From Thiomonas arsenitoxydans (lineage in GTDB: Bacteria; Pseudomonadota; Gammaproteobacteria; Burkholderiales; Burkholderiaceae_C): a stretch of 64,000 nucleotides of DNA. The stretch spans positions 1,674,001 to 1,738,000 of the forward strand of contig NC_014145.1 of the NCBI RefSeq assembly GCF_000253115.1, read 5' to 3'. The translations under genes were made by a program, and so were the position numbers. The notes beneath the pieces were generated by a model, which ran no database searches, was not told the DNA's origin, and was given only the letters and a program-made list of their open reading frames with translations. Below are positions 7,152 through 50,981 of the stretch, piece after piece. Position 1 is the first letter of the stretch. Each line of letters starts with the position of its first letter.

Positions 7152-7154
7152 CGA

Positions 7155-14040: not shown

Positions 14041-14140
14041 AATTCTTCCAATCTCCTCATACAACGCCATGCAGCCTTTTCGAACTATCTTGCAGACCCC
14101 CTGAGTTTCAGAGGTCCGCACGCCCGTGCATAGCGATGAC

Positions 14141-14167
14141 AAGGTGCGGTCCATCCGCACCTTTTTT
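14141..14167 (+). terminator. Hairpin and T-run just before thrS
   Basis: AAGGTGCGG and CCGCACCTT pair around a short loop and are followed by six T. The T-run ends about 19 nt before the thrS ATG. It either ends the tRNA-Val transcript or acts as an attenuator in a thrS leader. I see no obvious threonine-rich leader peptide. Confidence 0.7.
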
Positions 14168-14185
14168 ATTTGAGCGAGACGCATC

Positions 14186-22262: not shown

Positions 22263-22347
<85 letters not shown>

Positions 22348-24380: not shown

Positions 24381-24421
24381 GTAAGCGTGCAGGGAACCCC
24401 TCTTGACACCCGAAGTGAAGG

Positions 24422-26038: not shown

Positions 26039-26050
26039 ACGTCCGGGGGA

Positions 26051-26392: not shown

Positions 26393-26395
26393 GGC

Positions 26396-26764: not shown

Positions 26765-26835
26765 GGAGCCCCCGAAAAAACCCAAGCTTCGCTCAGCTCA
26801 GACTCATTGAAAAGATGGGTTCGGCAAACGCTTAC

Positions 26836-32615: not shown

Positions 32616-33560
32616 TCAGGGATGCATTTTGAACGACATGTCGGCGATCGATTCGGTGGCAACCGCCATAGCCTGTCGCGTCTGGGGTTGAAAGATCAGC
32701 ACCGCGCTGGGGGTCGACAGCAGGTATATCCCAGCAATATCCTTGCCGTCCTTCAAATGCACGTCGATGATTTGTTGCGCGGGAGACGTGGCGGGCGGGG
32801 TTTTTACCATTGGAGCCGTGGGAGAACAACCCATGGCTGCGCCGTGGGTATCCTGGCAAAGCAGGGCCGTGCCCGAAGCGATGCCAATGACTACGGGCAT
32901 CGAAAGTACCAGCGCCACGACGATCAGCGCCAGCGCTGCAAGCAGGGCGGACAGCGGTTGGAACAACACGCCGATGCCGATTGCCAAAACGGTCCTCCAA
33001 CCCTTCCCTCGCAGGGCTTCCTTGGCCTTTGCCAACTGCCCAGTGAATTGCTCCCACTTCTGCTGCCCACGCCAAGGCTTCTTGGCATCCGCGGCTGGCT
33101 GCTGACTCTTATGGAAAAGAACGCTCAGGAGGAAGAATGCGGCAAGACCGATGATGAGCGCAAACGCAGCCGTTCCCAGCCAGTTACTGAGCCACTGCTG
33201 GGAGAACAGATGGCCGAAGAATGTGAGTGGATTGTTGTTAATGTCGACGGCAATCTTGGTGATCAGCGGCAGGAGGTACAGCATGCCGATGGAGGACAGG
33301 TCCAGCAGATCGATCTGACCCTTGTACAGCGACGAATGGGGAATGCCCAGATGGCTCTCCACGGCCATCGAAACACCGAACCCGATCAGGCACAGGGCGA
33401 TGTAGATGATCGGAAGAACGAGGGCGAATTTAGCCAGGACGCTTGTTTCCGAACGAGGTGGTCTGGCGGTTGTTTGTTTTGCATCGGAAGAAGAGGGCGT
33501 TGGAATCGGTGCGGTTGCAGGGGCGCATGCAGCGTGCGGTTGTTTGTGTGCTGTCGTCAT
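32616..33560 (-). CDS. Element-borne multi-pass membrane protein
   Basis: A 314-residue protein with a Pro/Thr-rich cytoplasmic N-terminus (about 1-40) and four or five hydrophobic segments (FALVLPIIYIALCLIGFGVS, LSSIGMLYLLPLITKIAV, FALIIGLAAFFLLSVLFH, LSALLAALALIVVALVLSMP). The C-terminal soluble domain includes IIDVHLKDGKDIAGIYLLST. It begins with ATG 33560. I do not recognise the family. It lies between the replication module and the quorum-sensing module, so it could be conjugation-related or an immunity protein. Confidence 0.6.
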   Translation of the reverse strand: MTTAHKQPHAACAPATAPIPTPSSSDAKQTTARPPRSETSVLAKFALVLPIIYIALCLIGFGVSMAVESHLGIPHSSLYKGQIDLLDLSSIGMLYLLPLITKIAVDINNNPLTFFGHLFSQQWLSNWLGTAAFALIIGLAAFFLLSVLFHKSQQPAADAKKPWRGQQKWEQFTGQLAKAKEALRGKGWRTVLAIGIGVLFQPLSALLAALALIVVALVLSMPVVIGIASGTALLCQDTHGAAMGCSPTAPMVKTPPATSPAQQIIDVHLKDGKDIAGIYLLSTPSAVLIFQPQTRQAMAVATESIADMSFKMHP

Positions 33561-33973: not shown

Positions 33974-33989
33974 CTGTCAATCTTGACAG
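33974..33989. promoter_or_regulatory. Lux-box-like palindrome 1
   Basis: CTGTCA-ATCT-TGACAG, with the same TGTCA-N4-TGACA half-sites as the two other copies near luxR and luxI. It lies past the end of luxR and 144 bp upstream of the small protein at 33585-33830. Binding by the local LuxR is inferred from the shared sequence. Confidence 0.65.
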
Positions 33990-34059: not shown

Positions 34060-34773
34060 TCAGCCCAGCATTCCCAGCATTCCCGCTCGAATGACCGCTG
34101 CGGTCTTGTTCGGCGCGTGCAGCTTGGCGATTGCATTGGCAATGTGGAAGTTCGCCGTGCGCTCGGAGATGTTGAGGATGTCGGCGATCTCCGATGCCGT
34201 CTTGCCATCCGCGGTCCAGCGCAGCACCTCGATCTCCCGGTCGGTGAGCGGAGCTGTTACTGCGGGCATTAGTTTGGCCGTAAGAATGCGCGACATGCCC
34301 AGATGCACCATCTGCGTCAGCCAAGCCAACTGCATCTCTTTATCGCGCAGTTCGATCTCGGAGATTGGCTCCCCCGATCGTGACACCGACAACAGGCCCA
34401 TGGTGCTGTTCACGTCCCGGCTGGATTGCGCCCAGCCAACACACAAGCCGAACGAGCGGGCTTCTTCCCAGAGATCGCGACTCGAGGCGAAGAACGCGTC
34501 CGACCAAACGACGGGCTGCAGGGAATGCGTGCCATGGCGGACAGTCGGGTCAACGGCGAGATAGCCCTTCTCAGTGTAGCGATTCTCCCAGGCGCGCGGA
34601 TAATTGGTCAGCAATACCACCTTAGGCCTGGAGACCGGTAACGGCATGCGCAGTCCATAGGAACAGTGGTCGAATCCTAGGGAGTGGACCATTGAGACCA
34701 CGATCTCGAACAACTGCGCGTCACACGTGATCGTCTGCAGCGCATGGAGTTGGTGTTCTTGCCATCCCTTCAC
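34060..34773 (-). CDS. LuxR-family AHL-responsive regulator
   Basis: A 237-residue quorum-sensing regulator. The N-terminal autoinducer-binding domain includes HSLGFDHCSYGLRMPLP, NYPRAWENRYTEKGYLAVDP and PVVWSD (the conserved Trp, Tyr, Asp and Pro positions of LuxR sensors). The C-terminal LuxR helix-turn-helix is LTDREIEVLRWTADGKTASE then NISERTANFHIANAIAKL. I chose GTG 34773 because AGGAG lies 8-12 nt upstream and the protein then starts KGWQEHQLHAL like its family; an ATG at 34812 would overlap the lux box. It is divergent from the DUF4902-like gene and luxI. Confidence 0.92.
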   Translation of the reverse strand: MKGWQEHQLHALQTITCDAQLFEIVVSMVHSLGFDHCSYGLRMPLPVSRPKVVLLTNYPRAWENRYTEKGYLAVDPTVRHGTHSLQPVVWSDAFFASSRDLWEEARSFGLCVGWAQSSRDVNSTMGLLSVSRSGEPISEIELRDKEMQLAWLTQMVHLGMSRILTAKLMPAVTAPLTDREIEVLRWTADGKTASEIADILNISERTANFHIANAIAKLHAPNKTAAVIRAGMLGMLG

Positions 34774-34805
34774 GGCCTTCTCCTGCAGACAGTTCTTGTG
34801 GCGGA

Positions 34806-34821
34806 CTGTCATATTTGACAC
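34806..34821. promoter_or_regulatory. Lux-box-like palindrome 2 in the luxR/DUF4902-like divergent promoter
   Basis: CTGTCA-TATT-TGACAC, 33 bp upstream of the luxR start and 65 bp upstream of the divergent gene at 34886. It could serve both. The final base breaks the outer pair; the TGTCA/TGACA half-sites are exact. Confidence 0.65.
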
Positions 34822-34885: not shown

Positions 34886-35323
34886 ATGATGCATGCAATT
34901 TCCACTGACGGGCTTGCATTAGCCCGGGCACCCATGATGACCCTTTCGGATGACGGCCTGATCCGTCTCACCGTTGAAGCCCTAAGGACGATCCCTTTCA
35001 TCCATCTGCTGTCCGGGTTGGATGAACACAACGGATCTCCTCCCACCTTTGAAGGTGCCAGTCTGGACCCGATCTCCGGCTACACCGAATGGGTGAGTAC
35101 GACATCCCCGGTCATCACTCTCGGCTGGGATTGGTGGCTGGATGCCTCTGCGATGCCGTTCATCTATACCCATGTCGGCGAACCCCGAAGCAATGTGATG
35201 ATTGAGGATGCTCAGCACCGCGACCTGGGCAGACGCAAGACCGATGCGACGCTGGAGACGCTGATCTCAACGTTGTCCTGGCAAGCTGCTGTCGCGGAGC
35301 ATATTCGTTCACGTTACGCATGA
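34886..35323 (+). CDS. DUF4902-like conserved protein in the quorum-sensing locus
   Basis: A 145-residue protein starting MMHAISTDG with TTGAGGA just upstream. It contains LIRLTVEALRTIPFIHLLSG, ISGYTEWVSTTSPVITLGWD and PRSNVMIEDAQHRDLG, which resemble the DUF4902 family that I recall beside luxI/luxR pairs in Burkholderiales. The family name is from memory and tentative. Its place between luxR and luxI, each behind a lux box, suggests a modulator of the circuit. Confidence 0.65.
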   Translation: MMHAISTDGLALARAPMMTLSDDGLIRLTVEALRTIPFIHLLSGLDEHNGSPPTFEGASLDPISGYTEWVSTTSPVITLGWDWWLDASAMPFIYTHVGEPRSNVMIEDAQHRDLGRRKTDATLETLISTLSWQAAVAEHIRSRYA

Positions 35324-35327: not shown

Positions 35328-35343
35328 CTGTCAGATCTGACAG
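35328..35343. promoter_or_regulatory. Lux-box-like palindrome 3 upstream of luxI
   Basis: CTGTCAGATCTGACAG is a perfect 16-bp palindrome ending 64 bp before the luxI start. It is the best of the three copies and the natural site for LuxR activation of luxI (positive feedback). Confidence 0.75.
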
Positions 35344-35407
35344 TTACGCGTGCGTGTTGGCGCAGGTTGAATACATCCTCCAAGTATCGATGCCAATTGG
35401 AGGTGGT

Positions 35408-35962
35408 ATGCAGATCGTGTCAGGATCCCCGGCGCAGCTTCAACAGGGCTTGCACGCCAGCGTCGGGCGCTATCGCCATCGGGTGTTTGTAGAGAAGCTC
35501 GGCTGGGACGTGCCCTCTCAGGAGGGCATTGAAGCCGACCAGTTCGATCGCCCGGATACCGTCTATGTTGTCGGCCGAGATGATCAGGGGCATGTCTGTG
35601 GCTGTGCTCGGTTACTGCCCACCACCCGACCCTATCTTCTGGGCGAGGTGTTCCCGCAGTTGTTGAGCGGCCTCGCCCCGCCTGCATCCCCCGATGTCTG
35701 GGAGTTGTCGCGATTTGCGGCCACAGATTTCAACAGCGAGGCCACCTCTGCGCTGGGAAAGATGTCCTCAGAAGCGGCTATTGAATTGATGTGCGCGTCG
35801 ATTGCTTGCGCCGCTGAGCAAGGTGCCAAGCGGCTGATTATGGTGACGAATATCGGGGTGGAAAGATTGCTGCGGAGAGCTGGCTTTCAAGCACACCGCG
35901 CGGGGCCACCTATGATTATTGATGGGCATCCGATTTTTGCCTGCTGGGTTTTGTGCGCGTAA
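35408..35962 (+). CDS. LuxI-family acyl-homoserine lactone synthase
   Basis: A 184-residue autoinducer synthase. Conserved elements are RYRHRVFVEKLGWDVP (N-terminal Arg, Phe, Trp), EADQFDRPDTVYVVGRDD, GCARLLPTTRPYLLGEVFP and VWELSRFAATDF (Glu-X-X-Arg). Start ATG 35408 follows GGAGG at 5 nt spacing; the frame opens upstream at 35354 without one. It makes an AHL from S-adenosylmethionine and an acyl donor. The acyl chain cannot be predicted here. The biosynthetic operon starts 117 bp downstream on the same strand. Confidence 0.95.
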   Translation: MQIVSGSPAQLQQGLHASVGRYRHRVFVEKLGWDVPSQEGIEADQFDRPDTVYVVGRDDQGHVCGCARLLPTTRPYLLGEVFPQLLSGLAPPASPDVWELSRFAATDFNSEATSALGKMSSEAAIELMCASIACAAEQGAKRLIMVTNIGVERLLRRAGFQAHRAGPPMIIDGHPIFACWVLCA

Positions 35963-36079
35963 ATAGTTGCCCCTAGATTATGGCTTAACGCGCCATTATG
36001 GAACCATATCAAATTCTAAGAATAAAACAAATTCTGATTTCTTTTCTCGATTGTGTTTTCAAAAGTAGGAATTTGTCTG
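35963..36079. other. AT-rich gap between luxI and the biosynthetic operon
   Basis: 117 bp, clearly more AT-rich than the chromosome. It contains the inverted repeat TATGG-AA-CCATA (35997-36008) but no TGTCA-N4-TGACA site and no evident terminator. The operon may therefore be read through from the luxI promoter or have its own promoter here. Confidence 0.45.
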
Positions 36080-37129
36080 ATGATGTTTAGAACTCGAAAG
36101 CGAGTCACACTCGACGACCCCAGCCTAGCGCGTGTCGCGCTGACCCCACAGATGCTGGACTATGATCGTTTCGCTGGTCGTGGGAAATCCCAGTATCTTC
36201 CATATGTTATGAGCTTCAATGCTGCCGATTTCCATTCTGCGGCGATCAATACCGACCAGCTAGGCTTTCGTTTCGCGCATGATGCCAAAGGTAATGCGCT
36301 AAGCGTCGGAACACTGGACGTTTCCGAGCCCAAGTCTGTGAATCTACTGATTGGAGCCTCACCCGCTCTGGGCTATGGCGCATCTAGCGATGCAACATCA
36401 GTGGTCAGCCGCCTGTCTGCAACGGATCCTGATGGTACTCCGTGGCTAAATTTCGCGGGGCACTGCTTCAATGCCGTGCAGGAATTGATGCTGTTCATGC
36501 TTCATTCCCACCGCTTGCCCAATGTCAAGCAAATCGTGGTAATGGGCGGCTTCAATACCCTGGTTATGGCACGGCTTCCAGAATTCATTCGGGGTGAACT
36601 TCCGCCATTCTATTTCTGTGGAGAATATTACGAAAAATTCGATGAAATCGCTGAGGATAATGGTGCCCAACTGTCACCTGCGAAGTTGCCGAAATGGCCG
36701 GCAGAAACAACTACGGTACCCCCCGTTGAGCAAACCATTGATCGCGCCTTTGAAGAGACCCTGCGTCGCCTAGCAACGTGGAAACAACTGGCGACTTCAC
36801 TGGGCGCAGAACTTTCTTTTGTGTTGCAGCCATTGGCAACCTGGGTTCGAAAACCTTGTGCGGAAGAGCAGACCTTGTTCAAGGAATTGGATCAGATTTC
36901 AAGACTCGGTACTTGGCAGCACTTGTACGGTGATATATCTGAATATTCCGTTGCAGAACGATATGCCGACAAATTGAGCACTGGCTGTCATTCATTAAAT
37001 ATTCGTTTCGGTAATTTAGTCAGTGACTTGCGACAGCGTCCGACCGGAGAATGGCTTTTCGTGGATCGCGCTCATTTCACCGATCTTGGCAACGATGTCG
37101 TGGCACGCGCCATCCATCAGAACTTATAA
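36080..37129 (+). CDS. SGNH-like protein ('inducer of phenazine A'-like), first gene of the operon
   Basis: A 349-residue protein. LLIGASPALGYGASSDATSV near residue 88 resembles a block I SGNH motif (GxSxxxG), VVMGGFNTL resembles block III, and DRAHFTDLGNDVVARAI near the C-terminus supplies the DxxH of block V. I recall similar proteins annotated as 'inducer of phenazine A'; that name is from memory and implies no function here. It may be an esterase or acyltransferase. Start ATG 36080 has AGGA 9-13 nt upstream; a GTG at 36053 is possible. It heads the operon, 21 bp before the 31-residue peptide gene. Confidence 0.7.
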   Translation: MMFRTRKRVTLDDPSLARVALTPQMLDYDRFAGRGKSQYLPYVMSFNAADFHSAAINTDQLGFRFAHDAKGNALSVGTLDVSEPKSVNLLIGASPALGYGASSDATSVVSRLSATDPDGTPWLNFAGHCFNAVQELMLFMLHSHRLPNVKQIVVMGGFNTLVMARLPEFIRGELPPFYFCGEYYEKFDEIAEDNGAQLSPAKLPKWPAETTTVPPVEQTIDRAFEETLRRLATWKQLATSLGAELSFVLQPLATWVRKPCAEEQTLFKELDQISRLGTWQHLYGDISEYSVAERYADKLSTGCHSLNIRFGNLVSDLRQRPTGEWLFVDRAHFTDLGNDVVARAIHQNL

Positions 37130-37150
37130 GATAAACACTGGAGAATTTAT

Positions 37151-37246
37151 ATGTTTAATCGAATCCTCAAGGTACTTGGTTCGCTGTTCACGAAAAAGAA
37201 GAAAGCCAAGAAAAAAAATAACTCGTCCATCTATCCGATGTACTAA
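37151..37246 (+). CDS. 31-residue cationic peptide, candidate biosynthetic precursor or carrier
   Basis: A short frame with GGAG 7 nt before the ATG. It starts MFNRILKVLGSLFTKKKK, continues AKKKNN and ends SSIYPMY. The N-terminal 14 residues could form an amphipathic helix, the middle is nearly all Lys and the tail is polar and aromatic. Its TAA overlaps the ATG of the diiron oxidase gene (TAATG), so the two are translationally coupled. I do not recognise it. It has no Cys and does not look like a classic bacteriocin. Possible roles are a RiPP precursor with a C-terminal core, a scaffold extended by the ATP-grasp enzymes, or a membrane-binding regulator. Confidence 0.65.
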   Translation: MFNRILKVLGSLFTKKKKAKKKNNSSIYPMY

Positions 37247-39372
37247 TGAATACTAATCGGCAAATATTTTCCAACTTCCTGGGAGCCCAGGCGAGGGAAG
37301 AGGTTAGGCGGATTTTCGCGCCTGCAGCCGTCCGAGCCCGTATCACCTCGGTGCTCCCGGCTGACTTGGTGGAAGCTGACTTTGCCTGCCCGTCAACATT
37401 GGCTGCACTGGTCAGCGTGGCTCACGAACGTATTCAACCCTTGCGTGAAGGCTTTCTTAGGTTGGCCGCCTTGATCGCGATTGAGACTAATGAGCTAAAT
37501 GCCCTTGCCCTGCGCTCAAAGGCAGCGTTGGAATCGGCACCCTTTCTGATTGGCAGTCAGCACCTGATTCACTCCGTGTGCGGAAGTTGGAACAACGAAA
37601 GCCGCTACGCCATGGCCACGCTCAGGATCCACGCTGCCGATCTCGGTGTCGGCCAGCCGGGAGCTAGCCGTATTTGCCGCTACCAAGAGTTGCTGCGCCA
37701 GCATAGCCTAGCCGATGCTGGGGAGGATCTCTTGCATACCGGGGACGATCTGCGGATATCGGACGGTGCCTTCAATTTTGCCGCGCCCTTGGTGGTGCTT
37801 GGTCATTTCCCGGAATCTCTTACGGGAGAGATTCTTGGCGTTAACCTGTACCTGAGACAGTGCGGCCTGTTGCCACCTCTAGAGTTTGTCGCGAACGACG
37901 ATTGGCCCGCCATGCAGTATCTGGACCTGGGGCGCGATCCCAGTGGCAACTCCACCGATTTGCTCGAACTCGCCCAGATAGCGGTGCGGGAATTTTTAGG
38001 CGATGCGGCTGAGGTCAAGTACACGGCCGTGCGCCAGGGTTATCACTGGGCGCGGCGGCAGACTGAGGCGATGAGCCAAGCCATGCTCGCTGTGCTTGAG
38101 CGCTGGGTCGATCCCAGGGAAGCGGCCCAGCATTTGGTCAGCCGCCGTCGACTGGACGCATGCCAGTATCACGAGAAAATCCGGTTGAATGGCGTGCCAA
38201 TGCAGTCTTTGCTTAAAGATGATGGGGCGCTGCCGTTCCTCGATCACCTTGCTGCCAGTGCCTACGTGCGGGCGGGGAAACCCGAGTTGAGCCTGCTGCT
38301 GACCAGCTTGATCTCGCCTCGGGGGAAAATGTTCCGCATTTTCAACCGTGATGACATCACCGTCCTCCATCGCTGGATCTTAGGCCTACCCTACGCCGAT
38401 GCGCCGCTGCATCCGGCAGCCCATCACATGTGGAAAGATGATGATGCGTTCGCCGGGGCCGCCGGATCAATCGAAGATGGCGTTGAGGCGCAAACCCTGG
38501 TGCCGAGCATCGGCGCGCGTCAGGCCTACCCGCGTCTTTTGCACGAGGAGCTTACGCCTGCCGAGGAAATCTACGCGAGGCAATACGTGGTGCGCTGGCT
38601 CGCACGGGCCGCGCGCAACGTTGCCAAGGGGAATTGCCCGCTACCGGAGGAGTGGGTACCTGGTGTCCTGCGTCAGTGGTTACAGTGCCAGCACGAAGCC
38701 TCCAACAAGGCGATCGAGCAGGAGGATGACTTACCCTCGAGAGAGGGCGTGGTCGCAGACGTCCTTTCCCTGGCGCCGCTAACGATGATCGACGGTGCCT
38801 GGCTGGCGGGATTCGCGCATCCGGCCGTGGCCTGCTCGGGGTACGGTTGCAGGCTATTCGAAACATTCTTTGATGAGCTGGGCAACGGCATCGAGACACA
38901 AAATCATCCTGCCATCTACCGCAACCTGCTCAGGGCGCTTCATGGCGACCTACCCGCCACGGTTGATTCCGGATACGCCAATGCATCCTGCTTCAGCGAC
39001 AAGGATTTCGAACTGCCGGTGTTCTGGCTGGCGATTGGGCGTTATCCCCTGACCTATTGCGCTGAAATTCTCGGCCTGAACTTGGCAATGGAATTATCTG
39101 GCGTTGGTGGGGGCTACAGGCGAACTCACAAGGCATTGGTCGCTTATGGCTACCCCACGATGTTCGTCGACTTGCATAACTCCATTGACAACATCTCTTC
39201 CGGGCACACAGCGTGGGCTGCTGCAAGCCTAGATGCCTACCTATCGACATTTCCTCGCAGTGATAGCGCTGCAGTATGGGTACGAGTTCGTAACGGATTC
39301 GCTGCTCTGAATCTACCTAAGGGGCAAACAATGCTTGACAAAATCCGTGAGAAAGTGGAATCGCTGTTATGA
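37246..39372 (+). CDS. Two-domain haem-oxygenase-like diiron oxidase (HDO), unusual
   Basis: A 708-residue protein that appears to hold two copies of the helical 'iron-containing redox enzyme' fold. Each has an ExxGxNL-type motif (TGEILGVNLYL near residue 195, CAEILGLNLAME near 605). The second copy also has VDLHNSIDNISSGHT near 640, giving His-X3-Asp-X5-His ligand spacing expected of HDO enzymes such as UndA, BesC and SznF. At the equivalent place the first copy reads LDLGRDPSGNSTD and lacks the His ligands, so it is probably structural. HDOs cleave or N-oxygenate amino-acid-derived substrates with O2. The substrate here is unknown. It is coupled to the peptide gene upstream and overlaps the carbamoyltransferase gene by 4 nt. 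Confidence 0.75.
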   Translation: MNTNRQIFSNFLGAQAREEVRRIFAPAAVRARITSVLPADLVEADFACPSTLAALVSVAHERIQPLREGFLRLAALIAIETNELNALALRSKAALESAPFLIGSQHLIHSVCGSWNNESRYAMATLRIHAADLGVGQPGASRICRYQELLRQHSLADAGEDLLHTGDDLRISDGAFNFAAPLVVLGHFPESLTGEILGVNLYLRQCGLLPPLEFVANDDWPAMQYLDLGRDPSGNSTDLLELAQIAVREFLGDAAEVKYTAVRQGYHWARRQTEAMSQAMLAVLERWVDPREAAQHLVSRRRLDACQYHEKIRLNGVPMQSLLKDDGALPFLDHLAASAYVRAGKPELSLLLTSLISPRGKMFRIFNRDDITVLHRWILGLPYADAPLHPAAHHMWKDDDAFAGAAGSIEDGVEAQTLVPSIGARQAYPRLLHEELTPAEEIYARQYVVRWLARAARNVAKGNCPLPEEWVPGVLRQWLQCQHEASNKAIEQEDDLPSREGVVADVLSLAPLTMIDGAWLAGFAHPAVACSGYGCRLFETFFDELGNGIETQNHPAIYRNLLRALHGDLPATVDSGYANASCFSDKDFELPVFWLAIGRYPLTYCAEILGLNLAMELSGVGGGYRRTHKALVAYGYPTMFVDLHNSIDNISSGHTAWAAASLDAYLSTFPRSDSAAVWVRVRNGFAALNLPKGQTMLDKIREKVESLL

Positions 39373-41210
39373 CTTGCACGCTTGGTATCTCAGCCTTTTA
39401 CCATGACAGCGCGGCGACGTTGGTCGTGGATGGCAGGATCATCGCTGCCGCCCAAGAGGAGCGCTTCAGCCGGATCAGGCATGACCCAGATTTTCCTCAG
39501 CAGGCGATCTCCTATATTCTACGGCATTCGGGCATCAAACTGTCCGATGTCGACCATGTCGCATACTACGAGGATCCTGCGCTCAAATTCCGGCGAGTGC
39601 TTTCTACAGTAGCGGTGGCAGGTCTTGGCGCTGCGCAAAACTATGCGCCAGTGCTGGGTGAGTGGCTGTCGACCAAGCGGCGGATGTACCGTGAAGTTGC
39701 CCGGCACCTCAAAACGATGGGGGACCGTAACAACCGAAAGATCGAAGTACATGGCCACCACGATTCGCACGCGGCATCGGCGTTTTTCCCGAGCCCGTTT
39801 GAAGGTGCGGCGATCCTGTGCACCGACAGCGTTGGCGAATGGGCCACAACCAGCATCTGGCACGGCAGGCCAGAAGGAATCAAGCTCGTCGCGGAGTTGT
39901 CCTTCCCCCATTCGCTGGGCTTGTTGTACTCCGCATTCACCTATTTCTGCGGCTTCAAGGTGGATTCGGGCGAATACAAACTCATGGGACTCGCGCCATA
40001 TGGGAAGCCAATCTATGTCGACAAAATTCTATCTGAATTGATCGACGTCAAGGCAGATGGCAGTTTCAGGCTCGACTGGACCAAGTTCGAGTTCATTAAT
40101 GGCGAGACGATGACGGGGGAAGCATTCGAAAATCTGTTCGGTGGCTCCCGGCGCTTGCCCGAAGCGCCGCTGACCGACCGGGAGTTCAACCTGGCGGCAT
40201 CGATCCAGAAAGTCACCGAAATAGTGGTATCGCGCTTGGCCAAAACCGCCGCTGATCTCACCGGGGAGCGCTCGCTGTGCATGGCTGGAGGTGTCGCCCT
40301 GAACTGCGTGGCCAACGGTGTGATTTCTCGCGAAAGGATCTTCGATCGGCTGTGGGTTCAACCGGCTGCGGGGGATGCGGGGGGATCGTTGGGTGCCGCG
40401 ATACTTTCCGACCGCAGACATCGTGGAGTGATGACCCGTGAGCTTCCCTCGGTCTCCACTGATGGCATGAGCGGATCCCTGCTCGGCCCTGAGTATCGCG
40501 AGGAGCAGATCAAGGCCGCCCTGGACGATTGCGGTGCTGTCTACCACAGACTGTCGCAAAGCGATCTGGATGAGAAGGTGATCGTGCGCATCGAGGACGG
40601 CGCTGTAATCGGATGGTTCCAAGGGCGCATGGAGTTCGGTCCCCGCTCGTTAGGCAACAGGTCCATCCTCGGCGACCCGCGTCGTGCCGACACCCAGTCG
40701 ACCATGAACCTGCGCATCAAATTTCGCGAGTCGTTCCGTCCGTTCGCGCCCGTGGTTCTGGCAGAGAAGGCCGTCGATTACTTCAATATCGTCGAGGAAA
40801 GCCCGTACATGCTGGCAGTCTCGCCGGTGGCCGAGGCCATTCGCAAGGCGATAACGCAAGAACAATCGTTACTAACCGGGATCGACTTGCTCAATGTGAC
40901 TCGCAGCAAGCTGCCAGCTATCACCCATGTGGATTTTTCGGCACGGGTCCAGACTGTGGATCGGGAGCGCAATCCACGGTTCCGCACATTGCTCGAACGA
41001 TTTTATCAGCGCTCGGGATGTCCTGTGCTGGTTAACACTTCATTCAATGTCCGTGGCGAACCCATCGTCAACACGCCGTTCGAGGCATATCGCTGCTTCA
41101 TGCGTACCAATATGGACGTGCTGGCGATTGGCGATTTCTACCTGGACAAATCGGAGCAGCCTCCTTTCAAGGAATCTGTGGACTGGCGCGAGTGCGTGCC
41201 ATTGGACTGA
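39369..41210 (+). CDS. NodU/CmcH-type carbamoyltransferase
   Basis: A 613-residue O- or N-carbamoyltransferase using carbamoyl phosphate and ATP. The N-terminal ASKHA-like domain starts TLGISAFYHDSAATLVVDG and includes HGHHDSHAASAFFPSPFEG (metal His residues) and GEYKLMGLAPYGKP. The C-terminal domain has GDAGGSLGAAI, EFGPRSLGNRSILGDPR and VLVNTSFNVRGEPIV. Length is normal. In known pathways (nodulation factors, cephamycin, tobramycin, novobiocin) the family decorates a hydroxyl with a carbamate. Start ATG overlaps the HDO stop in an ATGA junction. Confidence 0.93.
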   Translation: MTCTLGISAFYHDSAATLVVDGRIIAAAQEERFSRIRHDPDFPQQAISYILRHSGIKLSDVDHVAYYEDPALKFRRVLSTVAVAGLGAAQNYAPVLGEWLSTKRRMYREVARHLKTMGDRNNRKIEVHGHHDSHAASAFFPSPFEGAAILCTDSVGEWATTSIWHGRPEGIKLVAELSFPHSLGLLYSAFTYFCGFKVDSGEYKLMGLAPYGKPIYVDKILSELIDVKADGSFRLDWTKFEFINGETMTGEAFENLFGGSRRLPEAPLTDREFNLAASIQKVTEIVVSRLAKTAADLTGERSLCMAGGVALNCVANGVISRERIFDRLWVQPAAGDAGGSLGAAILSDRRHRGVMTRELPSVSTDGMSGSLLGPEYREEQIKAALDDCGAVYHRLSQSDLDEKVIVRIEDGAVIGWFQGRMEFGPRSLGNRSILGDPRRADTQSTMNLRIKFRESFRPFAPVVLAEKAVDYFNIVEESPYMLAVSPVAEAIRKAITQEQSLLTGIDLLNVTRSKLPAITHVDFSARVQTVDRERNPRFRTLLERFYQRSGCPVLVNTSFNVRGEPIVNTPFEAYRCFMRTNMDVLAIGDFYLDKSEQPPFKESVDWRECVPLD

Positions 41211-41239
41211 TCATTTCATTCATTTGAGGAGTTGCAACA

Positions 41240-41356
41240 TTGGATTTCCTGTTTCTCTATCTGATTCTGCCGCTAGGGATATTCCTCAGGCGAAGTGCTG
41301 CCTTTGCCCATCGACCAGATCCCAAAATGAACTCATATCTGAGGCGAAAATCATGA
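41240..41356 (+). CDS. 38-residue TTG-start hydrophobic peptide
   Basis: A short frame with TTG at 41240 and GAGGAG 8-9 nt upstream. It begins as a membrane segment (DFLFLYLILPLGIFL) followed by basic residues (RRSAAFAHR), with tail SYLRRKS. The stop overlaps the oxygenase ATG as ATGA, so ribosomes would pass directly to the oxygenase. This accounts for the 140-bp gap that would otherwise separate two genes in a tightly packed operon. It may be a real small membrane protein or a coupling leader. Confidence 0.5.
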   Translation: MDFLFLYLILPLGIFLRRSAAFAHRPDPKMNSYLRRKS

Positions 41357-42324
41357 GCATCATGCTTTGCGATGCTCATGAGACAAAAGATCTCACAAAA
41401 GATCTCAAGGTCGTTCTAGTGGAACATTCACACCCCTCGGCATACTTGGAGGATTTCCGTGCCCGGCTGGCCAACAGATCGCATGCTGCTGACAGCGTCG
41501 GTCAGGTTGGTGCCGACTGGCTCAATTCTGTGCTTAGCCATGATGCTATTAAGGCTGTCCGTGATTTCACCCGCAGCTGCCACAAGACTCTTTTGCTGCG
41601 TGGTATTGCGCTGTCCACGGACGTCTCTACACCACGGGATGGGTTCCTGCCTGACAACCAGTGCGTCCTAGATTTCGATCTTCTGCATTTTGGCATGCTA
41701 CGCCTGATGGGCATCCGTCCGTATGCCGTCGAGTACGAGAACCACGGCAAATTGGTCAGGAATGTGCTGCCTGTGCCCGAGGCGTCAGGCATCACCAGTT
41801 CCTGGGGGGCGGATGTCGATTTTTCCTGGCACACCGACAACCCCAACTGGCCGTTCGCGGGCCAAGCCTGCGATGTCGAAGTTCGTGTCCCGAATTTCCT
41901 GGCCTTCGTCGCAGTACGCAACCATGAAGGCGCCTCGACTGACGTCGTCTGTGTGGATCAAATTCTCGAGCAGTTGCCTGATTGGGTGATAACAGAGTTG
42001 AGTAGGCCTGCCTATGCCTTCGGGGCCCCGGCTTCCAACGAGGGGTTCGAGGGACAAAAGCGGATTTTTCCAATCCTCGAGCATGATGGTCTTGTAAATC
42101 GGATGCGTTTCGACGAAGGCGTCGTGGAAGCGGTCGATCCGCTAAGTGCAGAAGCACTGAGCATCCTGCGCCGGTGCCTGAAAGGCACGCAAGGTGAGCA
42201 AATCGTGCTGCGACCGGGGGACTTCTTCATCTTCAAAAATACGCAGGTGCTGCACCGACGAAGGGCATTCAAACCGCTTCCTGAGGGTAAGGCTCGCTGG
42301 CTTCGCAGGGTCTACGCGAGCTGA
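41353..42324 (+). CDS. Fe(II)/2-oxoglutarate-dependent oxygenase, clavaminate-synthase/TauD-like
   Basis: A 323-residue non-haem iron oxygenase. The facial triad is visible: H160 and D162 in SWHTDNPNWPF, distal H301 in QVLHRRRAF; a basic residue for 2-oxoglutarate lies in the terminal RWLRRVY. Flanking sequence (SWGADVDFSWHTD, LRPGDFFIFKN) matches the AsnO/VioC/clavaminate synthase branch, whose members hydroxylate amino acids or small peptides, often at the beta-carbon. A product hydroxyl would be a natural acceptor for the neighbouring carbamoyltransferase. GAGG lies 8 nt before ATG 41353; the frame is open further upstream but as a shadow. Confidence 0.88.
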   Translation: MSIMLCDAHETKDLTKDLKVVLVEHSHPSAYLEDFRARLANRSHAADSVGQVGADWLNSVLSHDAIKAVRDFTRSCHKTLLLRGIALSTDVSTPRDGFLPDNQCVLDFDLLHFGMLRLMGIRPYAVEYENHGKLVRNVLPVPEASGITSSWGADVDFSWHTDNPNWPFAGQACDVEVRVPNFLAFVAVRNHEGASTDVVCVDQILEQLPDWVITELSRPAYAFGAPASNEGFEGQKRIFPILEHDGLVNRMRFDEGVVEAVDPLSAEALSILRRCLKGTQGEQIVLRPGDFFIFKNTQVLHRRRAFKPLPEGKARWLRRVYAS

Positions 42325-42374
42325 CTCCCGCTTCTTTCATAAATTCAAACGGTTAACAACATAGAAGTCTACAC

Positions 42375-43631
42375 ATGAACAAGCGTATTGCAGTCGTCGG
42401 TGGCCGCCCCTCACCCATTCATGGGGCCAAGGAACTGGGTATCGATGTCGTACTGGTTCACGAAGTCGGTGCCTACGAGCAGGAAATTGTCGCTCACTGC
42501 GAACAGGTGGTACATGCCAGTATCACCGATGCTGATGCGATCATCAAGGTACTCGAACCACTCCACCGCCAACGTTCTTTTGACCGCATCATGACGACGA
42601 CGGAGGCAGCCGGCGAATCTACGGGAAAAGTCGTAGACCATTTTGGTCTCACTGGTGTTTCCTACAAAACAGCTCACCTTTTGAAAGACAAGGTGGCCAT
42701 GCGTGACCTGCTGGTTCGGCATAACCTGAGTCCAGTCGCCTATAGGAGTATCACAGGCAAACAAGACGCGATTGATTTTGTCGCCCAGTACGGACGTTCG
42801 GTACTCAAACCTGCTGACGGTGTCGCCAGCTTACATATTCATCCCTGCGAGGATGAGGCTTCCGTATTGGTAGCTATGCTGGCTCTGGAAAAAGCGAACG
42901 TTACCAAGATCATCATCGAGGAGTATCTGGATGGGCCTGTTGTTAGCGTCGACTCCTTCTCTTTTGCGGGCCGACATCTACCAATCGGCTACTCCGAGTA
43001 CCGCATGAACGACAAATACGTTGAATGGGAGGTCAGCACGCCAAGTACCGCAGCGAAGCCTTGGCTAAGGGAGCTGCGCGCATTGACTTGCCGTCTACTT
43101 GATGCCGTTGAGCTTCAGGAGGGACCCTCCCACAGTGAATTCGTGCTGACCCCAAAGGGTCCGCGTGTACTTGAGTCCCATGCCCGTCTGGCGGGCTCGG
43201 GTGCCCCAGAACTCGTCAAGCGAGCGTTTGGCCTAAATCTGAATCGAATGTTCCTCACTGTTCCGCTCGGTATAGATAAGTTGCCTGATGTTTCACCAGA
43301 ACCTCAGGCTGGAGCAGCGATTCAGTTTTTTGTACCAACGTCCGGAACAGTTAAGAAAGTGGAGTTGGATCTGCCGCCTGGCGTTGAAGTTCGCTACACT
43401 AAAGTCGGGGAGATTCCTTTGGTGTTCCTTCCGTTTATCTTTGAGCTGGGCAATGCGCCGCTCGCTGTCGTCGTCCAAAAGCACGAAGGTGACCATATTC
43501 CCCCGCTCGATACTGTCGCTGACTGTGTCTCTGGCTACGCTTTGGCAACAGGTTCTTCTCGTGAAGACGCCGTCGCTATCACCGATAAACTGGTAGAGGC
43601 CGTGCGTTTCATTGTAGATCCCAAGCCATGA
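42375..43631 (+). CDS. ATP-grasp ligase 1
   Basis: A 418-residue ATP-grasp protein of the amino-acid ligase/carboxylate-amine ligase type. The order is: N-terminal pre-ATP-grasp (KRIAVVGGRPSPIHGAKELG), ATP-binding lysine region (LKDKVAMRDLLVRHNLSPVA, YGRSVLKPADGVAS) and the metal-binding LESHARLAGSGAPE. The C-terminal part (QFFVPTSGTVKKVELDLPPG) resembles the extra domain of dipeptide-forming members such as BacD. It should form an amide bond through an acyl phosphate. Start ATG 42375 has only a weak ribosome site. It is 50 nt after the oxygenase. Confidence 0.88.
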   Translation: MNKRIAVVGGRPSPIHGAKELGIDVVLVHEVGAYEQEIVAHCEQVVHASITDADAIIKVLEPLHRQRSFDRIMTTTEAAGESTGKVVDHFGLTGVSYKTAHLLKDKVAMRDLLVRHNLSPVAYRSITGKQDAIDFVAQYGRSVLKPADGVASLHIHPCEDEASVLVAMLALEKANVTKIIIEEYLDGPVVSVDSFSFAGRHLPIGYSEYRMNDKYVEWEVSTPSTAAKPWLRELRALTCRLLDAVELQEGPSHSEFVLTPKGPRVLESHARLAGSGAPELVKRAFGLNLNRMFLTVPLGIDKLPDVSPEPQAGAAIQFFVPTSGTVKKVELDLPPGVEVRYTKVGEIPLVFLPFIFELGNAPLAVVVQKHEGDHIPPLDTVADCVSGYALATGSSREDAVAITDKLVEAVRFIVDPKP

Positions 43632-44833
43632 GCTATGTGCTTTGCTTGCACCGCTGGGTTGGTAATCAGGCGCTCTATGACCGGTACGAATTACCAGCGG
43701 ACATGAAAATTCGGGCGATCTGCACGTCCGAATCCGTTGCCTCGCTGCCAACTGAACGTTTGGCATCCTGGACAAGCTTGCCATCGTTAGACGATGCTAT
43801 CGCGGTCAGGAAAGAGGCTGAGCAATTTGTCACCCAGCACGGAGTGCCCGCGTTGGTGGTGGCTCTCAATGAGGGCGATTTACTCAATGCAGCCTCAATT
43901 CGCGAGCGTTGGGGGGTACCAGGTGATCATGTCGCCTGGACCGAGCGATTCCGCGACAAACTAAAAATGCTCGAAATCGCCGAGCAACAGACAGCAATCG
44001 GCGTCCTACCTGCCGTGAGAGTGCAATCGCAGGAACTCGTCGAGCAGTTGGCGACAAAGCATGGCTATCCCCTAGTTCTCAAGCCCCGGTATGGCACGGC
44101 AAGTAGAGGAGTGAAGATCCTCCGTAATCTTGGGGATGTGCAGAAACTAGAGGCCACTCATGCTGAACCTATGATGGTTCAAGTTTATTGCGCGGCCCCC
44201 ATCTTGCATGTCGATGGCTGGTGGGATGGTCAACATATCGTTGTCGCCACAGTATCTAGATACGTGAATAGTTGTGCCGATTTTGGCCCGGAGAGCCCCT
44301 TGGCCAGCATTGAGCTGGAGGAAGGGGATCACGAACGACGAATCACCAACAGAGTTGCGCAATTGCTAGAGGTTTTTGCGCCGCATCGAGAGATCGTGTT
44401 CCACCTCGAACTGTTTGATAGAGGTAATGAGTTGCTGTTCCTGGAAATTGGTGCTCGGGTGGGTGGTGCCGAGATCCCGTTTATCTGGCGAGAAATCAGA
44501 GGCATCGATTTGATAGGAATCGCATGGGAATTGCAGACTGGTGCGTCCACCCACTACAGAGACTTGGCACGCAACCTCAGCCGCAATGGTCGGCCACTGC
44601 TGAGTGAGCGTGGCGCGTGGGTGATTGCGCGGCGCAGCAGTGCTCTGCGAGACAACCTAGAGTCCCTGTATTGGTCCCAGCCACAGAGCGTGGAGCATTC
44701 CGCTAGTGGTGTCTATGAAGGTTCGAAGACCCGTCTTCGCTTGCGCAGCTTCCAGCGCACGGCGCTGGAGCGGAGCGTTAGAACGGTCTTCGAGCAATTG
44801 TCAAAACCTGAATCAGGGGGAGTTCAATCTTGA
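43628..44833 (+). CDS. ATP-grasp ligase 2
   Basis: A 401-residue second ATP-grasp enzyme, only distantly similar to the first. It has FRDKLKMLEIAEQQTAIGVL, YPLVLKPRYGTASRGVKI (ATP-binding Lys) and FLEIGARVGGAEIPFIWREI (metal-binding Glu and Arg). It lacks the C-terminal domain seen in ligase 1. Two ligases imply two amide bonds, or an ordered addition of two building blocks. Start ATG overlaps the stop of ligase 1 (ATGA). Confidence 0.85.
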   Translation: MSYVLCLHRWVGNQALYDRYELPADMKIRAICTSESVASLPTERLASWTSLPSLDDAIAVRKEAEQFVTQHGVPALVVALNEGDLLNAASIRERWGVPGDHVAWTERFRDKLKMLEIAEQQTAIGVLPAVRVQSQELVEQLATKHGYPLVLKPRYGTASRGVKILRNLGDVQKLEATHAEPMMVQVYCAAPILHVDGWWDGQHIVVATVSRYVNSCADFGPESPLASIELEEGDHERRITNRVAQLLEVFAPHREIVFHLELFDRGNELLFLEIGARVGGAEIPFIWREIRGIDLIGIAWELQTGASTHYRDLARNLSRNGRPLLSERGAWVIARRSSALRDNLESLYWSQPQSVEHSASGVYEGSKTRLRLRSFQRTALERSVRTVFEQLSKPESGGVQS

Positions 44834-45612
44834 AAACAGCAGTTATTACAGGAGCGAGCAGTGGTATTGGCGAAGGCTGCGCCCGATTACTGGCCCGCAG
44901 TGGCTGGAAGGTATTCCTTATGGCGCGCAGGCGGGAGCGGCTGGAGAACATCGCACGTGAAATAAATGGGCACGCCATCATACTGGATGTAACCAAGGCC
45001 CAGGAAGTCGAAATTGGGCTAGTGACCCACTGCGATTTGCTGGTGAACTGCGCGGGTGGCGCACTTGGCCTGGATGCAGTGCGCCAAGCCAATGCCGATG
45101 ATTGGACAAGTATGTTCAACACAAACGTGCTGGGCACCCTGCGCATGACACAGCTGCTGCTGCCGCGACTGATCGCGTCCCAGGGCTGCATCATCAACAT
45201 CACCTCTACGGCTGCGCTGGGTGGATACGAAGGTGGTGGTGGGTACTGCGCGGCCAAGAGCGCCCAGCGGGCACTCACCCAGTCCTTGCGACTAGAGATG
45301 AAAGGTGTACCGGTACGCATCACCGAAGTGCTGCCCGGCATGGTTCATACGCCGGAGTTTTCCCTGAACCGTTTTTGTGGCGATGCTGAAAGAGCCAAGG
45401 CCGTGTATGAGAACGTCGACCGGCCTTTGAGTGCGGAGGATATCGCCCAGGTTGTGGCAACGGTTGCCGAGTTGCCGGCCCATGTCAATGTCGATGAAAT
45501 TGTGGTTCGTCCGGTGGCGCAGCGTGCCCAGCATGCGCTGTTCCGCGGAAGTCTCGGTTGGCGCGAAGCGCCCCCGGTGGCCCATTCACCTGTGAACGAA
45601 GGAGAGCGTTGA
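44830..45612 (+). CDS. Short-chain dehydrogenase/reductase
   Basis: A 260-residue classical SDR similar to the YdfG group. The cofactor motif is TGASSGIGEG with ARRRERL after beta-2, favouring NADP(H). NCAGG, the catalytic Ser in NITSTAALGG and YCAAKS (Tyr-X3-Lys) follow. YdfG relatives oxidise beta-hydroxy amino acids such as serine, which fits a pathway with a beta-hydroxylating oxygenase. That link is inference. The start is TTG 44830, overlapping the ligase 2 stop, with GGGAG 8 nt upstream. Confidence 0.85.
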   Translation: MKTAVITGASSGIGEGCARLLARSGWKVFLMARRRERLENIAREINGHAIILDVTKAQEVEIGLVTHCDLLVNCAGGALGLDAVRQANADDWTSMFNTNVLGTLRMTQLLLPRLIASQGCIINITSTAALGGYEGGGGYCAAKSAQRALTQSLRLEMKGVPVRITEVLPGMVHTPEFSLNRFCGDAERAKAVYENVDRPLSAEDIAQVVATVAELPAHVNVDEIVVRPVAQRAQHALFRGSLGWREAPPVAHSPVNEGER

Positions 45613-46241
45613 TGATACCCCTGGAAAACCTGGCCGGTATGGCCATCATCGCTTTGGGCATGGTGCTGACACCCGGACCGAACATGGTCTATCTGACATC
45701 GCGGGCGATTTCCCAGGGGCGACTGGCGGGGATGATTTCCCTGGCGGGTGTGACCCTGGGCTTCTTGTGCTATCTGCTGGCATCAGGGCTGGGACTAGCC
45801 GCTTTGTTTAAAGCAGTACCGATTGCCTACGACATCGTCAGGATCGCGGGCGCCTTCTATCTCGGCTACCTAGCTTGGAACATGCTCAAGCCCAAAGGTG
45901 TTTCTCCTTTCGAGGCGCGAGAGCTGTCGCCTCACTCGCCTCGGCGCCTATTCACCATGGGTCTGGTGACGAACTTGCTAAACCCAAAGATCGCGTTGAT
46001 GTATTCGGCGTTGATCCCTCAGTTTATCGATCCTTCAGCTGGATCGACTATTCAACAATTCATCCAACTGGGGATCATCCAGATCGTCATCTCAGTTACC
46101 GTCAATGGCATGATTGTCCTGACTGCTTCGACGTTCAGCAGTTACCTCGCCAAGCACCCTTCCGTCATGCGCGCCCAACGCTGGCTTTCTGGGGCTGTGC
46201 TGGGTATCTTCGCGGTGGATATTCTCGTGCGCAAACCGTAG
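45612..46241 (+). CDS. LysE/RhtB-family exporter
   Basis: A 209-residue membrane protein with about six hydrophobic segments. The family signature is VLTPGPNMVYLTSRAISQGR near the N-terminus, then AGFYLGYLAWNML-like AGAFYLGYLAWNML and TNLLNPKIALMYSALIPQFI. LysE/RhtB proteins export amino acids, homoserine lactone analogues and amino-acid-like toxins by proton exchange. Start ATG 45612 overlaps the SDR stop (TGATG). As the last gene of the operon it most likely exports the product, which also hints that the product is amino-acid-like and that export may protect the producer. Confidence 0.9.
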   Translation: MIPLENLAGMAIIALGMVLTPGPNMVYLTSRAISQGRLAGMISLAGVTLGFLCYLLASGLGLAALFKAVPIAYDIVRIAGAFYLGYLAWNMLKPKGVSPFEARELSPHSPRRLFTMGLVTNLLNPKIALMYSALIPQFIDPSAGSTIQQFIQLGIIQIVISVTVNGMIVLTASTFSSYLAKHPSVMRAQRWLSGAVLGIFAVDILVRKP

Positions 46242-48693: not shown

Positions 48694-48699
48694 TGGCCA

Positions 48700-49796: not shown

Positions 49797-50843
49797 TTAC
49801 CCTAGCTTCTGCGCCAACTTCTCCGCCTCGATGTGGGTGTAGCGCTTGAGCATGGCGAGTGACTTGTGGCCGGTCATGGAGGCTACTTCCATGACGCCAA
49901 GACCTTTCTCGAACAAACGCGACGTGGCTTCGTGGCGTAAGTCATGGAAGCGTAGGTCGATCAGGAATGTGGGGTCGGGCTTGGAGTTGGATGCCGTGCA
50001 GTCAGTTTGATACGCCGCCAGCGCACGCACCTTGCAACGCGTCCATGCCTTCTCGAAACTGTCCTTGTTCTGCCAACCGAACACCCGGCCATCGATGCGG
50101 CGGGGCAGGGTGCGCAGGGCGTCCAGGGCGGCGCTGGACAGTGCCACGGTTCGGCTTTCACCATTCTTGGTGTCCACCAGATGCGCGGTGCGTCGCGCCA
50201 GATCGATGCGCGACCATTCCAGACCTAGCAGTTCACCCAGGCGCATGCTGGTCTCGACGGCCAGCGTGATGATCTGCGGCAGGCCCACCACTTGCGACCG
50301 CGCGGCAGCCGCGCCTCGCCGCAATGCATCGAGTTCACCGGGCCGCAGCCGACGATCACGGCCCTTCGGCTTTATCGGCTTGCGAATCGCGCGCACCGGG
50401 TTGCCCGCAGGCAAGGTAATGGACATTTCCTGCTCGGCATAAGTGAACAGGTTCGAGAGGGCTGCAAGCCGATGGATAACGGACTGCGCCGCGTAACCTG
50501 CCTCGACGAGCTCATTGCGCCACGCCGCCACATCGACACTTCGCACGGCGCTCAGGAATGACGCGCCGAACCGCTCATGTACCACGCGCAGGTTCGACGC
50601 AGCACTATGATCCTTTTTCATCGGCAACACATGCTTTGTGTAGAGGGCCACAACCTGATCGATGGTGATCTTCCCTGCGTCGTCGCGTAGCACGGCACGA
50701 TTGCCGCGTTGGACTTCGCGCTCGACCTCGCGAGCCCAGGCTTCGGCATCGGCTTTCAGATCAAAGGTGCGCGAAATGGACGGCATACCGCGCTGCCTGA
50801 TTTGTGCGCGCCAACCGTTTTTACGTTGCTCGAAGTAGGCCAT
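49797..50843 (-). CDS. int: Tyrosine recombinase (element integrase)
   Basis: A 348-residue phage-type integrase. An N-terminal arm-binding region (YFEQRKNGWRAQIRQRG) is followed by a SAM-like core-binding domain (ITIDQVVALYTKHVLPMKKD) and the catalytic domain with Arg in ETSMRLGELLGLEWSRI, RFHDLRHEATSRLF (His-X-X-Arg) and GHKSLAMLKRYTH (nucleophile Tyr). All catalytic residues are present. It is transcribed inward from 86 bp inside attR, with ATTCCCCC repeats right at its start codon. It presumably integrates and excises the element at tRNA-Pro(GGG). Confidence 0.93.
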   Translation of the reverse strand: MAYFEQRKNGWRAQIRQRGMPSISRTFDLKADAEAWAREVEREVQRGNRAVLRDDAGKITIDQVVALYTKHVLPMKKDHSAASNLRVVHERFGASFLSAVRSVDVAAWRNELVEAGYAAQSVIHRLAALSNLFTYAEQEMSITLPAGNPVRAIRKPIKPKGRDRRLRPGELDALRRGAAAARSQVVGLPQIITLAVETSMRLGELLGLEWSRIDLARRTAHLVDTKNGESRTVALSSAALDALRTLPRRIDGRVFGWQNKDSFEKAWTRCKVRALAAYQTDCTASNSKPDPTFLIDLRFHDLRHEATSRLFEKGLGVMEVASMTGHKSLAMLKRYTHIEAEKLAQKLG

Positions 50844-50845
50844 CA

Positions 50846-50864
50846 ATTCCCCCTAGATTCCCCC
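50846..50864 (+). repeat. Two ATTCCCCC repeats at 11-bp spacing (candidate integrase arm sites, right)
   Basis: ATTCCCCC at 50846 and 50857. The surrounding AATTCCCCCTAGATTCCCCC is identical to 22439-22458 at the left end. It abuts the integrase start codon, so binding could also repress int. Confidence 0.6.

Positions 50865-50928: not shown

Positions 50929-50981
<53 letters not shown>

Follow-up and report, generated by a model that had tools for sequence, protein, structure and literature searches.

The gvg cluster of Pseudomonas fluorescens WH6, the cluster of 4-formylaminooxyvinylglycine (FVG), was described in PMC8067088 as containing an esterase gene (gvgA), a small Lys-rich open reading frame (gvgB), a gene with a heme-oxygenase domain (gvgC), a carbamoyltransferase gene (gvgF) and a small open reading frame with a signal peptide or a membrane segment (gvgG), and activity was lost in knockouts of gvg R, A, B, C, F, G and H. 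"Gvg-like" clusters, in which a core of A, B, C and F is combined with variable partners, were reported in 2021 (PMC8064604) from many genera including Thiomonas; at least eight variants were distinguished, mostly uncharacterised and with unknown products, and the 2021 gvg papers present the FVG pathway as not elucidated and the roles of gvgA, gvgB, gvgC and gvgG as unclear. The present analysis concerns such a locus in Thiomonas arsenitoxydans, a luxI-headed operon in a 64,000-nucleotide stretch of contig NC_014145.1 (positions 1,674,001 to 1,738,000; this whole stretch is called the window, and its own numbering is used below). By sequence homology, the operon core A-B-C-F-G matches gvgA-B-C-F-G of the FVG cluster; the locus is of a known kind, a gvg-like variant with a quorum-sensing head and an ATP-grasp tail. 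From homologies, synteny, co-occurrence, the conservation of a peptide tail, a predicted fold and a catalytic triad, we judge it somewhat probable that the cluster is cargo behind luxR-luxI on a tRNA-Pro island and that A-B-C-F-G makes a small unusual amino acid on a carrier peptide, B. The genes are as follows.

35408..35962, frame open from 35354, plus strand: luxI, acyl-homoserine-lactone (AHL) synthase (Autoind_synth 5.9e-29).
36080..37129, frame open from GTG 36053, plus strand: A, gvgA-type SGNH protein, CgnD homologue (phmmer to CgnD 8a2n_B, 4.1e-42).
37151..37246, plus strand: B, 31-residue Lys-rich candidate carrier or precursor peptide ending SSIYPMY.
37246..39372, plus strand: C, two-domain heme-oxygenase-like diiron oxidase (HDO), gvgC type (Haem_oxygenas_2 8.5e-13).
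39369..41210, plus strand: F, NodU/TobZ-type O-carbamoyltransferase, gvgF type (Carbam_trans_N 2.9e-83, Carbam_trans_C 1.7e-69; GdmN/TobZ in the PDB).
41240..41356, TTG start, plus strand: G, 38-residue single-span membrane peptide, gvgG type.
41353..42324, plus strand: 2-oxoglutarate (2OG) oxygenase of the clavaminate-synthase/VioC/AsnO type (TauD 1.6e-8; profile to PDB 6daw 3.6e-22).
42375..43631, plus strand: ATP-grasp ligase 1, L-amino-acid-ligase type (ATPgrasp_N 3.4e-11; LAL_C2 below cut-off; profile to BL00235, 3vot, 3.9e-26).
43628..44833, plus strand: ATP-grasp ligase 2, divergent (weak ATP-grasp matches below cut-off; alignment of relatives).
44830..45612, TTG start, plus strand: short-chain dehydrogenase (SDR; adh_short 2.3e-40).
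45612..46241, plus strand: predicted LysE-type exporter (PF01810 2.5e-32).

The original prediction had read these genes as a quorum-sensing-linked operon with an unrecognised enzyme combination. Its gene order and strand were confirmed by the reading frames (35354-46241) and by domain scans, in which the operon and LuxI proteins fell into the Pfam/NCBIfam families Autoind_synth, Haem_oxygenas_2, Carbam_trans_N/C, TauD, ATP-grasp/LAL_C2, adh_short and LysE, and its six overlaps of 1-4 nt were all seen in the junction sequences: 1 nt between B and the HDO gene, 4 nt each at HDO/carbamoyltransferase, G/2OG, ATP-grasp 1/ATP-grasp 2 and ATP-grasp 2/SDR, and 1 nt at SDR/LysE, assuming ATG 45612 as the LysE start. 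The gene list was right as far as it went, although luxR, the DUF4902 gene and the surrounding island had gone unmentioned and the second small peptide and the SDR start with TTG. The operon indeed holds no nonribosomal peptide or polyketide synthase, and an amino-acid-type product of carbamoyl and ATP-grasp chemistry is plausible. The claim of an unrecognised combination falls for the core, which is the gvg and gvg-like core as described in PMC8064604 and PMC8067088; for the full gene set with a product, no report was found in the literature searched.

The comparison with gvg used the homologous loci of P. fluorescens P5A (L093), FW300-N2E3 (L082) and P. chlororaphis PCL1601 (L095), to which A is 41-43%, C 34-36% and F 57% identical (tblastn), and which carry the B tail SIYPMF. 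Counterparts of gvgA, gvgB, gvgC and gvgF are all present at the Thiomonas locus, a gvgG-type membrane peptide follows the carbamoyltransferase (41240-41356), and the five genes stand in the same relative order as in WH6, which also has LysE export. In WH6, D (amidinotransferase) and E (LysE) lie between C and F, whereas in Thiomonas C directly precedes F; gvgH and gvgI give way to the 2OG oxygenase, two ATP-grasp ligases and the SDR, and luxI is added. Among the ten scanned operon and lux proteins, neither Aminotran_3 (gvgH) nor Formyl_trans (gvgI) was found, both being present in the related loci L089 and L085, and for this reason a complete FVG cluster was rejected. The scanned locus proteins also gave no GntR match that would correspond to the GntR/MocR regulator gvgR; luxR is found instead.

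Relatives were collected with an HDO alignment, which was run against a single genome of each species, and the best 80 of 105 confirmed places together with 3 of 18 plasmid records gave 83 loci, in all of which C is present by construction since they were picked by HDO similarity. A, F, the 2OG oxygenase and both ATP-grasp ligases occur together in 27 of the 83 (any tblastn match at 1e-3 for A and 2OG; at least 50% for F, ATP-grasp 1 and LysE; more than 30% and more than 100 bits for ATP-grasp 2; at least 40% for SDR), which is the co-occurrence across species that the original prediction had named as its support. SDR is found in 15 of these 27 loci, LysE in 14 and both in 9; the hosts are 7 Pseudomonas, 1 Reinekea, 18 actinomycetes and 1 Mariprofundaceae bin. 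The eight Pseudomonas and Reinekea loci are collinear with the window, with A, C, F, the 2OG oxygenase and both ligases 47-83% identical, and in a carbamoyltransferase tree of 76 sequences (the window and 75 of the 78 loci with F) the window groups with these eight with a support of 100. Within the family, C matches were obtained in 18 of 299 genomes including the window's own, the others at E 2.6e-16 or weaker and mostly in the C-terminal domain.

Elsewhere, the A-B-C-F-G module stands with an aminotransferase and a formyltransferase (gvg), with a thiamine-pyrophosphate enzyme, a pyridoxal-phosphate enzyme and an ATP-grasp protein (L065), beside a condensation domain (L030), and with LysE alone as far as the frames show (L096). 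Because the partner enzymes vary between loci, the most likely role of the module is to provide one building block for other enzymes to finish. The L096 locus of Chromobacterium piscinae (8599-14725), an apparently minimal A-B-C-F-G-LysE cassette with opposite-strand neighbours on both sides, offers a good model for the module product. On a plasmid of Agrobacterium vitis (L014, 5426-17566), gvg-like genes lie beside a diaminobutyrate transaminase, a SidA/IucD/PvdA N-monooxygenase and a pyridoxal-phosphate enzyme, and the tail reads IYPLR rather than IYPMF. In Streptomyces microflavus (L038, about 95-7270), a very large "lonely Cys" domain protein adjoins a cluster of the ATP-grasp type, and a similar large frame is seen in L028 and L086.

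The part of the module to which the original prediction, correct as to its presence, had given no weight is the 31-residue peptide, and the comparison makes it the key one. B contains 8 Lys, with a polybasic stretch and a start that looks amphipathic by eye. A short Lys/Arg-rich frame ending in [ST]IYP[ML]x-stop lies upstream of C or near A in 79 of the 83 loci, including all 77 in which A and F are both present; in the four others, A and an F match of at least 50% are missing as well (L046 has a 33% F match). The search expression fixed Y and P, allowed I/V/L, S/T/N/P and M/L/I/V at other places and treated the start codons as putative; in the tails so obtained, 80 with that of the window, S or T stands at position -6 and I at -5 throughout and M at -2 in 78, several synonymous codons are in use, and the last residue is F in 69, H in 5, Y in 3, R in 2 and N in 1. 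Searched without regard to neighbours, the DNA pattern [ST]IYPMF-stop matched in 2 of 398 phylum genomes, with gvg-like genes next to both matches (A, 2OG and ATP-grasp 1 at one, an HDO at 24% at the other), and the window's own tail pattern has a single match in the whole genome, B itself. The strings SIYPMF and IYPMF gave no match in 5.39 million papers of the open-licence literature, most subscription papers lying outside this scope, and in the same literature no paper joining vinylglycine or FVG with a scaffold peptide or CgnD was seen in the titles and abstract beginnings of the matches listed. The notion that both small peptides are noise in a plain soluble pathway was rejected on the recurrence of B and of G. 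A counterpart of G, a short open reading frame that combines a hydrophobic segment with a basic tail, was seen behind the carbamoyltransferase at 62 of 78 loci, whereas an interval within the carbamoyltransferase gene gave such a frame at 2 of 78. The Met of the tail was considered as a carbon source for FVG and is not claimed; two tails have Leu.

Protein A has no Pfam or NCBIfam match, and its sole meaningful match among PDB sequences, over nearly the full length, is CgnD (8a2n, 4.1e-42). The CgnD triad Ser79, Asp325 and His328 corresponds to S103, D338 and H341 of A (numbered from GTG 36053), and these residues are invariant in 13 of 13 aligned rows (of 18 intended). According to PMC10070186, CgnD releases the crocagin core from the ribosomal precursor CgnA, a 21-residue peptide with a Lys/Arg-rich leader and the core Ile-Tyr-Trp, and B resembles such a short precursor with a basic leader and a C-terminal core, as a resemblance only. 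Crocagin (cgn) thus shares with the Thiomonas operon a CgnD-family hydrolase, a tiny basic precursor whose core starts with I-Y, a carbamoyltransferase and an iron oxygenase; the differences are that the crocagin core is IYW whereas the B tail is IYPMx, that CgnC is a 2OG enzyme whereas C is an HDO, and that carbamoylation is drawn late in crocagin, an earlier step not being excluded by its authors (PMC10070186).

Protein C (708 aa; model pLDDT 89.4, pTM 0.91) has its Haem_oxygenas_2 match at the C-terminus. E544, H554, E607, H644, D648 and H654, i.e., the six-ligand set expected of an HDO, are invariant in 32 of 32 rows; we take these to be the metal ligands by their pattern. In the predicted structure, the catalytic domain (residues about 405-692) folds most like the N-oxygenases RohS, HrmI and SznF, with which this fold is shared, whereas the extra N-terminal HDO-fold domain (42-288) belongs to C only. 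That domain has no ligand set conserved across the 32 rows (E118 is invariant in the 15 closer rows but does not reach 90% across the 32) and appears degenerate, judged by the alignment columns. The conservation of the B tail, the CgnD homology of A and the N-oxygenase-like fold of C are new in this analysis.

With regard to the finishing enzymes, the closest NCBIfam models of the 2OG oxygenase are GntD, VioC and ClavSyn, all under their cut-offs, and its profile lies nearest to hydroxylases of free amino acids (6daw, VioC-type arginine hydroxylases, AsnO and clavaminate synthase); the profile of ATP-grasp 1 is nearest to the L-amino-acid ligases BL00235 and BacD. A literature search on HDO, carbamoyltransferase and ATP-grasp brought up the mangotoxin paper and, among the matches listed, no precedent for the combination. 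In the mangotoxin (mbo) pathway, an HDO is likewise found with two ATP-grasp ligases, which build a tripeptide; MboA acts on a tripeptide to give an alkyne, and in the opening part of PMC13185094 there is no mention of a carbamoyltransferase, an SGNH protein or a carrier peptide. The literature on the aldgarose carbonate gave no biosynthetic precedent among the matches listed.

The unit at the head of the operon, with the gene and sites in front of luxI, comprises the following features.

33974..33989, plus strand: exact lux-type palindrome CTGTCA-N4-TGACAG (two such sites in none of 100 shuffles).
34060..34821, minus strand: luxR-type regulator (Autoind_bind 7.2e-41, GerE 3.5e-19).
34806..34821, plus strand: lux-type palindrome with 1 mismatch.
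34886..35323, plus strand: DUF4902 protein between luxR and luxI (PF16245 3.9e-29), presumably RsaM-like.
35328..35343, plus strand: exact lux-type palindrome preceding luxI and the operon.

An AHL synthase, an AHL-binding LuxR and lux palindromes are thus all present, and AHL production is predicted. The exact palindrome, a pattern chosen after the site was seen, occurs at two places in the 3.79-Mb genome (33974 and 35328), both at this locus; when two mismatches are allowed, 3 sites are found in the window versus 2.25 expected, which is not above chance. A membrane protein of 314 aa (32616-33560, minus strand), present in 2 of 13 genus genomes including the window's own, is preceded, at a distance of about 400 bp, by an exact lux-type palindrome.

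The surrounding island is bounded by three features.

22295..22347, plus strand: left attachment repeat, 53-bp exact direct repeat, the 3' part of tRNA-Pro(ggg) 22263-22339 (tRNA by ARAGORN).
49797..50846, minus strand: tyrosine recombinase at the right end (Phage_integrase 5.7e-24).
50929..50981, plus strand: right attachment repeat, 53-bp exact copy of 22295-22347.

Between these lies a 28.6-kb tRNA-Pro island that holds the lux unit. MobP-type relaxase matches are also found inside it, on two distinct frames that flank an IS66 transposase (22706-27643), and a DDE transposase gene stands between operon and integrase (46765-48954).

Among 13 genomes of the genus, 8 of them at least 90% complete, luxI was found in 3 and the carbamoyltransferase in 1, and the luxI of the two congeners (G165 and G049) is 92-93% identical to that of the window. 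The luxR-luxI stretch of G165 shares 86% identity with the window as far as the end of luxI (window 35951), the following 9.7 kb differ, and similarity resumes at the window integrase (window 49784); this family of integrases has 7 matches in the window's genome, so that the common integrase is only weakly indicative of a single site. The amino-acid-type cassette of G165 (L103:9244-18218), behind a 93%-identical luxI, comprises an HDO, 2OG-Fe_Oxy_2, ThiF, an aminotransferase, a semialdehyde dehydrogenase, DapF, a GNAT-like frame, a B12-binding protein and a LysE-like frame, the GNAT-like and LysE-like frames being named by eye. What follows luxI in G049 (L104:6482-9882, minus strand) is a chorismate-binding/aminotransferase-IV protein, a frame that by eye resembles a glutamine amidotransferase, and an N-oxygenase of the AurF type; about 2.7 kb interrupt luxR in this genome, and no common right flank with the window was found. 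The cargo behind luxI thus differs in all three luxI-bearing genomes of the genus.

The carrier role of B, in the manner of a ribosomally synthesized and post-translationally modified peptide (RiPP), is suggested mainly because A is a CgnD homologue, B has a basic body and its tail starts with I-Y. The reaction steps, the class of the product and the quorum control are likewise inferred. F would O-carbamoylate a hydroxyl on, or bound to, the tail of B (the Tyr or Ser of SIYPMx, or a growing residue), C would N-oxygenate the resulting nitrogen to give N-O chemistry as in FVG, and A, as a CgnD-type hydrolase, would release the finished unit, with G keeping the complex at the membrane. The 2OG enzyme would then hydroxylate the released unit and the SDR would reduce or oxidise it; the ATP-grasp ligases would join it to one or two amino acids, and LysE would export the resulting di- or tripeptide. 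AHL-bound LuxR at the palindrome before luxI would activate luxI and, via read-through, the operon. Cyclic-carbonate or aminooxy chemistry was considered for the Thiomonas product and is not claimed.

Several points weigh against this proposal. Foldseek with C gave no match to the PDB at E of 0.001 or below (best 8.7e-3), and a C profile found no match among PDB sequences. The same B tail occurs in clusters whose products must differ, which makes it unlikely that B itself is the product; B is found without A in L031 (a 7.6-kb contig) and without A and F in L029 (Actinomadura rudentiformis), where a B-like tail and an HDO without A or carbamoyltransferase in the available stretch may represent a reduced or decayed module. 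The reversed control of the tail pattern matched in 1 genome, and the two peptides found with the pattern are identical to those of L079 and L090, so that this search adds specificity and not new cases. The closest solved relatives of F (novobiocin carbamoyltransferase, GdmN and TobZ) use small molecules. Loss of gvgA or gvgC also lowers gvg transcription, and a regulatory role was argued for (PMC8067088); Davis et al. place homologues of A, C, F and G in the cluster of a macrolide (aldgamycin), a product without a peptide, although this link may be mere adjacency. Finally, luxI is absent from all 83 related HDO loci.

Two other roles for B bear on the same evidence. B might be a Tyr shuttle rather than a precursor: F would load an (N-hydroxy)carbamoyl group on the Tyr of SIYPMF, C would oxidise it, and A would take it over on its Ser and pass it to a free acceptor, much as D-Ala goes from the Tyr of DltX to the SGNH protein DltD. 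This would account for one tail with many products, and the DltX/PatA acyl-shuttle motif, a C-terminal FXYXXF hexapeptide with an SGNH partner (PMC12148441), has its Tyr at the same third place as SIYPMF, with F or Y last in 72 of the 80 tails. The first motif residue, however, is Ser/Thr and not Phe, so that SIYPMF/Y/H does not conform to FXYXXF, and the last residue is H, R or N in 8 of the 80 tails; moreover, there is no MBOAT among the scanned operon proteins, and the PDB match of A is CgnD, with DltD absent up to E 10. We therefore hold the shuttle to be unlikely. Less likely still is that B and G are structural microproteins which assemble C-F-A or anchor it to the membrane, all chemistry taking place on free amino acids; the polybasic stretch and amphipathic start of B, the one hydrophobic span of G and the small-molecule substrates of the F relatives would suit such a role, but a peptide with a purely structural role would not need such strict conservation of its last residues, and the family of A includes a peptide-releasing hydrolase.

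Independently of what B does, the link to luxI could be accidental, the cluster having been dropped behind luxI with a promoter of its own. The lack of luxI in the relatives agrees with this, as do the gap of 90-117 bp between luxI and the cluster and the lower GC content of the cluster (0.555 versus 0.613 for the whole window). On the other hand, in two congeners the same luxI is followed by different biosynthetic genes of like orientation, as if this were a favoured place, and the exact palindromes are found in the whole genome only at this locus. An accidental link is thus rather doubtful, and production at high cell density, as originally predicted, is plausible here by virtue of these palindromes; it does not extend to the relatives.

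A wider conclusion, which we advance tentatively as falling a little short of probable, is that FVG and the whole gvg-like antimetabolite family are peptide-carrier (RiPP-like) products: a basic peptide of about 30 residues with a near-invariant SIYPM tail would hold the substrate, a carbamoyltransferase and a two-domain HDO would forge the N-O unit, and a CgnD-type hydrolase would release it, with the cassette reused in several phyla with different finishing enzymes and, here, placed under quorum control on a mobile island. A role is thereby proposed for each of gvgA, gvgB, gvgC and gvgG. If this is true, the gvg-like clusters of Pseudomonas, Streptomyces and others would share one peptide-carrier logic, and the six-residue tail would serve as a tag for genome mining. 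The lux island, for its part, shows related genomes retaining one quorum switch with differing biosynthetic cargo behind it.

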